From positions 1 to 37,457 of the forward strand of contig DATBHW010000071.1 in assembly GCA_036557285.1 (NCBI GenBank): a stretch of 37,457 nucleotides of DNA, read 5' to 3'. The translations under genes were made by a program, and so were the position numbers. The stretch's first letter is position 1. Each line of letters starts with the position of its first letter. The DNA is from Ktedonobacterales bacterium. Its GTDB lineage: Bacteria; Chloroflexota; Ktedonobacteria; Ktedonobacterales; DATBGS01. The notes below the pieces were generated by a model. The model worked only from the letters and a program-made list of their open reading frames with translations. It was not told where the DNA came from and made no database searches. Below, in pieces: positions 168 to 36,030 of this stretch.

Positions 168-491
168 CGGAGCACGCTCCTTTCGACTTCGTGAGTCGCG
201 TGACTCACGCTGCCGAAACGGCCCCTTCCTGGCGCGACGATGGACGCGAAACTTGCCTTCGAGGGCGCGCGGATGATGCGCGTCGCCCTCTCCGACAAAT
301 GGCAGCCCAGTCGTGGTTCAGGAAGAGGCCGTGAAGCGAACTACCAAGTGAGCATAATAGCCGGTGATAGAATGCCTCCAGCCCCATTCCTGGTGTTGCC
401 AGGTCTGGGGGGAATGGCGCGGCGGTGACTTCATCACTGCCGCGTCATGCCGTTCCAGCGGAACCTCAGCCCACCCAAATGTGAACCGAGT
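168..491 (-). promoter_or_regulatory. Structured 5' leader (copy A) of the left-edge gene
   Basis: About 320 bases lie between the predicted transcription start (near 491) and the ATG at 167. Reading along the minus strand, they hold a strong hairpin (444 to 418, stem CGCGGC/GCCGCG extended by GTGA/TCAC, 5-base loop). Seven bases on comes a block at 410 to 363 beginning CCCCAG and containing CAGGAATG, GGCT and GAGG. Just before the ribosome site there is a perfect 8-bp dyad (CGTGAGTC/GACTCACG, 190-209). The same order of parts is found at 35019-35294. The leader may control translation; ligand or partner is unknown. The dyad alone could also be a protein operator. Confidence 0.55.
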
Positions 492-497
492 AAGAAG

Positions 498-526
498 AGT
501 ATACCTGCCTGGCTCTCCTCTGTCAA
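498..526 (-). promoter_or_regulatory. Sigma70-like promoter of leader A
   Basis: On the minus strand TTGACA (526-521) and TATACT (503-498) are separated by 17 bases, a near-consensus promoter. It points toward the left-edge gene. Hexamers and spacer length are identical to those of the promoter at 34984-35012. Confidence 0.6.
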
Positions 527-34692: not shown

Positions 34693-34740
34693 AGAAACAC
34701 TTCCTTTGGTAAGAGAGGTCAGGATGTGCGCCGAGCGTTT

Positions 34741-34926
34741 GCGTGTACCGCCGCCGTCCCTGGCGGCTCAACGCTGGCCCGCCACTCCGCTGACCTGGAG
34801 GGCGCACGCCACTGGTAGCGCCGCCATCTTGGCGGCTCAACGTTGGCCCGCCACTCCGCTGACCTGGAGGGCCACCGCTCGCCCTGGCGCAGCGGTGGCC
34901 GCCAGGGACGGCGGCGCTACAGGTGG
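34741..34926. repeat. Family A repeat block with direct duplication
   Basis: Two units begin with ACCGCCGCCGTCCCTGGCGG and AGCGCCGCCATCTTGGCGG. Both run into the shared string CTCAACG(C/T)TGGCCCGCC. The block closes with GGCGGCGCTACAGGTGG, the inverse of its left end. It is non-coding. Confidence 0.75.
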
Positions 34927-34983
34927 CTGACGCCCGCTTCCCCCAAAAAGTCCTATTGCTGCGCACAAAAGCACGCCCACCGC

Positions 34984-35012
34984 TTGACATTGCAGAACAA
35001 GCAGGGTATACT
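34984..35012 (+). promoter_or_regulatory. Sigma70-like promoter of leader B
   Basis: TTGACA and TATACT are 17 bases apart, near consensus. Hexamers and spacer length equal those of the promoter of leader A (498-526). Confidence 0.7.
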
Positions 35013-35018
35013 TCTCCC

Positions 35019-35294
35019 ATCTTCACTTGCAGGAGGTTCCCCCGCACTACAGATCAGCAACCCGTGATCATCAACTGAAGTATGGCTACTGCGGCCAGTG
35101 ACAACAACGCTGGCCGCAGCAATAACCCCAGTCCTGGAGGGTATTCAGGAATGAGGCTAGAGGGTATTGTACCATCGCCACCCTCCAGCGGCTCCTCCTG
35201 GACCCTGCTCGCCAGCCACGCTGGCGCCAGTCCACTGGGGGAGCCGCTTTGCTGCGCCGCTCACAGGCGGCGCAGCAGAAGGAGGGTAGCTTCG
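35019..35294 (+). promoter_or_regulatory. Structured 5' leader (copy B), homologous to leader A
   Basis: About 276 bases lie between the predicted start and ATG 35295. In order: hairpin 1 (35089-35119, stem CTGCGGCCAG/CTGGCCGCAG); a conserved block 35126-35173 starting CCCCAG and holding CAGGAATG, GGCT and GAGG; GGAGGGT/ACCCTCC; a three-tier stem (35187-35248, outer AGCGGCTCC/GGAGCCGCT); and a perfect 10-bp hairpin (35251-35276, GCTGCGCCGC/GCGGCGCAGC) three bases before AAGGAGGG. Block and hairpin order match leader A. It probably acts on translation or transcription of the following gene. An in-frame ATG at 35082 lacks a ribosome site. Confidence 0.6.
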
Positions 35295-35735
35295 ATGACC
35301 TTACCGTTTCGTCGTCACCTGCGTCCCTGCCCCTGGAACCCTGCTGCTTTCGCTGGTCCCAGCCCTTCCCTCACCCTGCGCGAGTGGCAGGTCGGTGTCC
35401 TGCTCTCGCGGCTCTCCCCCGTCGTGCGCGCGGCGCTCTGTGCCTGGCTGCTCGCTCCCACCGACCTGAACCGCTGGCCGCCGCCGGAGCATTTTCACCA
35501 TCAGCGGCTCCCCATCTGCGCTGAAGAACTGCGCGGTCAGCCGCGCTCCACCGCCTGCCACCTGCTCTACCAGGAACTGAAAGTGATTCGCCAGACGCTG
35601 GATATGCCGCCGCAGGTCTTGAGCGTCATGACGCACAACGGGCTGCTGGCGGTGCATGCCATCCGGCTCCAGCAGTTGGAGCGGTGGCTCTGGCCGCCCG
35701 ACGCCGCCCGGCAGATCCACCGCCTGATCGCCTGA
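35295..35735 (+). CDS. Small protein of unknown function, paralog of the left-edge gene
   Basis: The 146-residue protein starts MTLPFRRHLRPCPWNPAAF at an ATG with AAGGAGGG upstream. A helical middle (LREWQVGVLLSRLSPVV, RAALCAWLL) resembles the visible part of the left-edge protein. A His-rich segment (PPEHFHHQRLPI) and a C-terminal helical part (LYQELKVIRQTL, LQQLERWLWPPDAARQIHRL) follow. It has no signal or membrane segment. The second helical part could bind DNA or RNA, but no known motif is present. Function unknown. The long conserved leader suggests post-transcriptional control. Confidence 0.65.
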   Translation: MTLPFRRHLRPCPWNPAAFAGPSPSLTLREWQVGVLLSRLSPVVRAALCAWLLAPTDLNRWPPPEHFHHQRLPICAEELRGQPRSTACHLLYQELKVIRQTLDMPPQVLSVMTHNGLLAVHAIRLQQLERWLWPPDAARQIHRLIA

Positions 35736-35743
35736 CGCCTGCC

Positions 35744-36030
35744 CTCCAGCGCCGCCTTCCAGGCAGCCACTGGTACCGCCGCCGTCTCGGCGGCTCAACG
35801 TTGGCCTGCCGATACGTTAGCCTGGAGGGCGCACGCCACTTGTAGCGCCGCCATCTCGGCGGCTCAACGTTGGCCTGCCGGTACGGTGGCCTGGAGGGCA
35901 GACGTTGGCGCTGGCGCAGCGGTGGCCGCCAAGATGGCGGCGCTACAAGTGGCGTGCGCCCTCCAGGCCAGCGTTGAGCCGCCAGGATGGCGGCGCTACA
36001 AGTGGTACCCCTGATAGGTGGTGGAACCAC
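35744..36030. repeat. Large nested family A repeat block
   Basis: Three or more units form a nested palindrome. Left units start TACCGCCGCC and TAGCGCCGCC, each followed by GGCGGCTCAACGTTGGCCTG. Right units end GGCGGCGCTACAAGTGG twice. The outer end CCCCTGATAGGTGGTGGAACC is shared with 6232-6252. It fills the gap between two genes. Confidence 0.8.

Follow-up and report, generated by a model that had tools for sequence, protein, structure and literature searches.

A multicopy leader RNA family of Chloroflexota, probably under cis-encoded antisense control and likely related to the symE/symR leaders

Both ends of the analysed window, a stretch of 37,457 nucleotides that makes up the entire contig C71 of a 5.1 Mb draft genome from a Chloroflexota order with few sequenced relatives, carry a small protein gene behind a structured leader RNA of an undescribed family. 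We consider it probable that each such module is a gene controlled by its own cis-encoded antisense RNA, for which transcription attenuation is proposed as the readout. The antisense reading is well supported by the sequence comparisons given below and would make the family a known kind of regulation in a much expanded form. The original prediction had located the two leaders and their promoters correctly, and the order of elements it described (GC hairpin, CCCCAG..CAGGAATG..GGCT..GAGG, last hairpin, ribosome site and ATG) is common to both (Table 1).

Table 1. Elements of the two window modules, with their positions in the window, strand and the basis of each assignment.
Feature	Position	Strand	Basis
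Right module, sense promoter TTGACA-17-TATACT	34984..35012	+	sequence; same promoter upstream of most copies
Right P1 recognition hairpin, 12 bp stem, loop ACAACAA	35089..35119	+	folding, covariation, comparison with paralog L044
Right P2, strand a CCCCAGTCCTGG / strand b CAGGAATGAGGCT, variable loop	35126..35158	+	folding, covariation
Right antisense extended -10 TGGTACAAT (reverse complement of conserved ATTGTACCA)	35166..35174	-	sequence; equivalent in 34/34 own and 37/37 distant copies
Right predicted SymR-like antisense RNA, ~80 nt	35078..35159	-	inferred; position by analogy with annotated E. coli SymR
Right P3, GAGGGT/ACCCTC, encloses antisense -10	35160..35185	+	folding, covariation
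Right P4, a' AGCGGCTCCTCCTGG / b' CTGGGGGAGCCGCT, then TTTG, terminator-like	35187..35249	+	folding, covariation, swap test
Right P5 hairpin, directly before ribosome site	35251..35276	+	folding
Right ribosome binding site AAGGAGG	35279..35285	+	sequence
Right class A protein, 146 aa	35295..35735	+	homologs and leader association
Left module, sense promoter TTGACA-17-TATACT	498..526	-	sequence
Left P1 recognition hairpin	413..448	-	folding, covariation
Left P2, CCCCAGACCTGG / CCAGGAATGGGGCT	380..410	-	folding, covariation
Left antisense extended -10 TGATAGAAT (L032)	365..373	+	sequence
Left predicted antisense RNA	379..456	+	inferred
Left P4, ACGGCCTCTTCCTG / CAGGAAGGGGCCGT, then TTTCGG	218..332	-	sequence
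Left class A protein, cut at contig end	1..167	-	sequence comparison

A pattern taken from the conserved block (CAGGAATGnGGCTnGA) has four exact matches in the genome, namely both window leaders, one other leader and one coding site. The covariance model R1, built from eight leaders, yielded 34 places in the genome at E<=2e-8, and the model R2, built only from this genome and with P4 included, yielded 36; a direct search added a copy before the sixth P22_AR_N gene (19.5 bits). With at least 36 copies in this genome the copy number is far above chance; two loci (L062, L063), plain GC hairpins without the remaining leader, were left out of the count. All copies follow a common plan of sense promoter, hairpins P1, P2, P3, P4 and P5, and ribosome site. 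P1 is a GC hairpin in every copy, P2 has the consensus strands a CCCCAnnCCUGG and b CCAGGAnnUGGGGCU, P3 surrounds the conserved ATTsTAyCA, and P4 is formed by a' (GCGGCCAyCUyCUGG) and b' (CAGGrGrUGGCCGy, then a few U) around a variable insert of 9-141 nt. Among 24 own copies both sides have changed in 28 of 45 pairs and 86% of cells are paired, falling to 35-52% with slid partners. In 38 distinct distant matches, not used in model building, double changes occur in 36 of 45 pairs, with 260 double-change cells vs 93 after shuffling. The alignment was fitted to the model, towards which the first measure therefore leans, but the contrast with slid partners is very large. P4 is the most strongly paired helix. 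No Rfam family reached its threshold in the own, relative and distant loci. The leader is an undescribed RNA family with covarying structure and is not an ordinary coding region, which agrees with the earlier proposal of a functional structured RNA of no described family that would have further homologs.

The conserved block has a second meaning on the minus strand. All 34 own copies read TA[GCA]AAT there, 28 of them with a preceding TG, and all 37 distant copies read TGnTAnnnT at 7-9 nt from P2. The letters that never vary in it carry the greatest weight in a -10 box (T, A and T, with TG before them), and position three varies freely, as it does in promoters; shuffled sequence attains the same -10 score in about 4% of cases. 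This antisense -10 points back across P1 and P2. No good or clear match to an antisense -35 was found in the own copies, and the promoter must therefore act as an extended -10. Judged by its sequence, the "single-stranded block" is an extended -10 element on the other strand and not an aptamer. The kept spacing pointed out in the original prediction is real, but it would reflect a constant distance between P2 and an antisense promoter and not a ligand pocket. A riboswitch or protein-binding leader, in which a small molecule or a shared protein would bind the block, as aptamer or binding site, and alternative pairing between P2 strand b and a' would act as its expression platform, could account for the conserved core, the terminator-like P4 and the alternative pairing itself, but it leaves the coincidence of the invariant letters with a -10 on the other strand, the hypervariable P1 and P2 loops, and the lack of sequence relation among the controlled genes without explanation; we regard it as improbable. 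The riboswitch, one of the functions first suggested for the leader, was rejected once the block had been read as an antisense -10 and is unsupported because the recognition loops are the most variable part of the leader and the block reads as a promoter element of the opposite strand. Autogenous control by the protein, suggested alongside it, is unlikely because unrelated proteins stand behind the same leader.

SymE of E. coli is an SOS-induced protein repressed by the cis-encoded antisense RNA SymR (Rfam RF01809), and its sense leader opens with the same layout of P1 and P2. Part of GCATTCTAT in symE, read as its reverse complement, gives the E. coli antisense -10, TAGAAT, and annotated SymR starts 7 nt past it; in the leaders described here the antisense extended -10 lies at the SymR position. 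The E. coli antisense RNA covers P2 and P1 with 77 nt, and the one predicted here would cover them with about 80 nt. Mutation of the symR -10 abolishes SymR and raises SymE (PMC1891008). When searched with R2, which holds sequences of this genome only, the E. coli symE leader scored 21.6 bits and those of Klebsiella, Lonsdalea, Eleftheria and a Shigella plasmid 16-18 bits, and these five leaders were the best five places in 22 kb. The model R3, built from Chloroflexota only, gave 24-33 bits (E 1e-6 to 2e-4) at the symE leaders of E. coli, Klebsiella, Shigella, Lonsdalea and Eleftheria. It matched exactly at the leader in 5 of 9 symE loci from Gamma- and Betaproteobacteria, with other places at about 10 bits or less and weak or no score at the four remaining loci; across 97 kb of E. 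coli sequence the best score, 28.7 bits, fell on the symE leader, against 9.3 bits at the next place. Letters in common with the symE leaders are GCUAACC..CA..ACU...GGCUG...GCAUUCUA. In the reverse direction, the Rfam SymR model matches the minus strand of one relative's leader, L136, at 38 bits, below the gathering score of 61 (E 1e-3 in 46 kb); at the gathering score it matches no leader, and the own-genome leaders have no SymR match.

A common origin of the Chloroflexota and symE leaders is likely, because models made from Chloroflexota alone match the symE leaders well above the next place. Were the likeness due to convergence, any leader with sense and antisense transcripts would be expected to show a hairpin followed by an antisense -10; both groups do have such function-driven features and the SymR match in Rfam is sub-threshold, yet the letters in common go beyond them and R3 falls exactly at the leader in five symE loci with little score elsewhere, so that we hold convergence to be unlikely. 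The two systems also differ: the symE start codon lies inside P2 and control is translational, whereas the Chloroflexota leaders add P3, P4 and P5 and place the start codon about 100-200 nt further on; moreover, the proteins controlled here are unrelated to SymE, and this genome holds about 36 copies. SymE itself (AbrB fold, PF08845) was not found in the own genome and was found in 2 of 301 Chloroflexota genomes.

The first hairpin keeps its form and differs in sequence, as had been noticed for the two window leaders: P1 is distinct in 33 of 34 own copies, and the only identical pair is a recent duplicate whose second gene lost its start codon. When the window copy (L039) is compared with L044, its nearest paralog, P1 carries 10 differences in 45 positions vs 0 in 180 in the rest of the leader measured (Fisher 4e-8), and a further 60 nt downstream carry 3. 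Two further paralog pairs show the same excess in P1 vs downstream sequence, and the stretch upstream of P1 has changed as well. In the Chloroflexales copies L104, L105 and L106 the P2 loop varies and P3 and a' are identical. Variation of this kind in P1 and the P2 loop is to be expected of antisense RNAs that each have to single out one cognate target. Antisense control of the modules is likely. We propose that transcription from the sense promoter first gives the leader, about 240-340 nt long with P1-P2-P3-P4-P5, followed by the mRNA, and that the extended -10 inside P3 would give, from the other strand, an antisense RNA of about 80 nt complementary to P2 and P1. In the right module this RNA would start about 7 nt past the -10 and end beyond P1, the antisense strand of P1 forming its end. 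P1, together with the P2 loop, would serve as the recognition hairpin and differ from copy to copy so that the copies avoid silencing one another.

For the readout, P2 strand b would pair with a' while a Chloroflexota leader is being made and RNA polymerase would pass; with antisense RNA on P1-P2, a' would instead pair with b', P4 would form as a terminator and the gene would be off. The 5' half of P4, a', is complementary to strand b, which pairs better with its own a' than with a swapped one (p=0.009, 10 clusters of own copies); in the distant copies the same swap test was not significant (p=0.077, n=7), and column-wise covariation between b and a' is weak. When the RNA is folded only up to a', b pairs with a' in 27 of 34 leaders vs 18% with shuffled a', and when P1-P2 is blocked in folding P4 forms fully. 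In the complete leader at equilibrium, P2 and P4 form together in the absence of antisense RNA; attenuation must therefore be kinetic. Own copies have a short U run behind P4 (mean 4 of 9); in many Chloroflexales copies the U tract is good, with GCCGTTTT after P4, and GTTTT follows P4 in many distant copies. Attenuation is a plausible readout that would depend on kinetics and on P4 being a real terminator. Antisense control might otherwise act on translation or mRNA decay as in symE, P4 being a mere spacer or stability element and the duplex or refolded leader blocking the distant ribosome site. SymR works mainly on the level of SymE protein (PMC1891008), few U follow P4 in this genome, and a' resembles an anti-Shine-Dalgarno sequence in many copies; but the Chloroflexota start codon lies roughly 100-200 nt past the region covered by the antisense RNA, whereas that of symE is inside P2, and P4 pairs more strongly than any other helix and precedes GTTTT in many distant copies. 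We rate control at this level as possible and, on balance, rather doubtful.

The leaders stand before several kinds of genes. Both window proteins belong to a new family of proteins of 146-188 aa, here called class A; as suspected, they are related yet divergent (about 28% identical), and the left one is incomplete because the window is the whole contig and the gene is cut at its end. Among the 21 class A genes of the genome, all 19 with upstream DNA have the leader in front, the other two being cut by contig ends, which bears out the view of leader and protein as one module. Searches of Pfam, PHROGs, NCBIfam and PDB gave no class A match of note, and an AlphaFold model of a window protein made without an alignment was too low in confidence to use (pLDDT 46). 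A relation to small proteins of Chloroflexales was considered and dropped for lack of similarity (hhalign probability 0.1). Three class A genes have decayed (G000:C55:2-436, G000:C3:237225-237596 and L049), two of them cut by contig ends and carrying an in-frame TAG and one with ATG changed to AGG, and modules are therefore gained and lost. The leader also precedes 6 of 6 P22_AR_N (P22 antirepressor-like) genes of this genome and, in other genomes, genes for Bro-N and T5orf172/MUG113 proteins and for P-loop ATPases. In four loci (L040, L058, L068, L069) short inverted repeats of AAAGGGGGTnnnATnnnACCCCC type recur between leader and P22_AR_N ORF, with a different set in each module; they are perhaps operators of the antirepressor-like protein. 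At L070 (G000:C38:38070) and L100 the gene behind the leader encodes not a small protein but a P-loop ATPase of FtsK/TraD-like type. One genome (G003, locus L125) holds P22_AR_N, Bro-N and DinD-like genes together, and the leader accompanies several of them; in E. coli, DinD and symE both belong to the DNA-damage genes.

Relatives of the leader extend to other families of Chloroflexota. With strict filters they were found in 11 of 400 sampled Chloroflexota genomes, and within one class 18 of 158 genomes carry them; Oscillochloris, other Chloroflexales and Kouleothrix are among the carriers. In the own genome, those modules of contig C34 that were examined are scattered among ordinary chromosomal genes. 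Many Chloroflexales copies have a setting like that of mobile elements, with an HTH_17 gene directly upstream and DnaB- and FtsK-like genes near. In L119-L122 and L129, also from Chloroflexales, the leader lies directly 3' of an HTH_17 (excisionase-like) gene ending in NIPKKYR; this arrangement probably represents an integrative element, so far undescribed, that carries several leaders (three of them on G263:C122). A first pattern scan of genome contigs and a scan of viral contigs gave no match; a second scan of genome contigs gave Chloroflexales matches and four elsewhere (Uhrbacteria, Gallionellaceae, Oceanospirillales and Geoglobus), which were discarded with R2 scores at chance level.

Several known systems resemble parts of the proposed arrangement. 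The proposed readout follows the logic of the pT181/pIP501-type attenuators that control plasmid rep genes; altering the recognition hairpin makes such attenuators orthogonal (PMC3753616). Their antisense RNA over the first hairpins and their strand able to pre-empt the terminator would have counterparts in the leaders, but the genes here are not plasmid rep genes and attenuation is here predicted from folding alone. Control of antirepressor-type genes by RNA (here P22_AR_N and Bro-N) would be shared with C4 of phages P1 and P7 and sar RNA of P22, although their architecture differs; in phage P1, C4 RNA controls the antirepressor ant. At thresholds as permissive as E 10 (12 own and relative loci) and E 1 (16 distant loci) the C4 model (RF01695) matches nothing, and identity with a C4-like antisense RNA was rejected for want of an Rfam match. 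The terminated sense leader (P1-P4) could itself be a trans-acting small RNA like C4, readthrough being a by-product; the terminator-like P4 and the antirepressor-type proteins among the controlled genes would fit, but Rfam C4 is unmatched even at a permissive threshold and the antisense -10 and the diversification of P1 would be left unexplained, which makes this the least probable of the readings considered. PtaRNA1 (RF01811), a plasmid-transferred antisense RNA, is likewise a mobile antisense RNA module; its model has no match at the leader and a single weak match elsewhere.

SymR has so far been seen as an enterobacterial curiosity. With about even confidence we suggest that the leaders are one cassette of common origin, present in Chloroflexota and Proteobacteria with symE/symR as one case, which has become linked to genes of no mutual relation (SymE, P22 antirepressor-like, Bro-N, FtsK-like ATPases and class A) and which here, through diversifying selection on the recognition hairpin, forms about 36 mutually insulated antisense attenuators. 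If this is true, SymR would be one branch of an old RNA control cassette of wide occurrence, defined by the antisense promoter within its structured leader. The roughly 36 paralogs of this genome, differing in their recognition hairpins, would also be a natural set for measuring how antisense cross-talk, a practical problem in the design of RNA circuits, is avoided, and the leader gives handles on the class A proteins and the antirepressor-like genes of Chloroflexota. As a separate observation, GC-rich REP-like palindromes (GTAGCGCCGCC...GGCGGCTCAACG) flank both window modules (34740-34930, 35760-36010 and 560-760) and recur near other modules of the genome.
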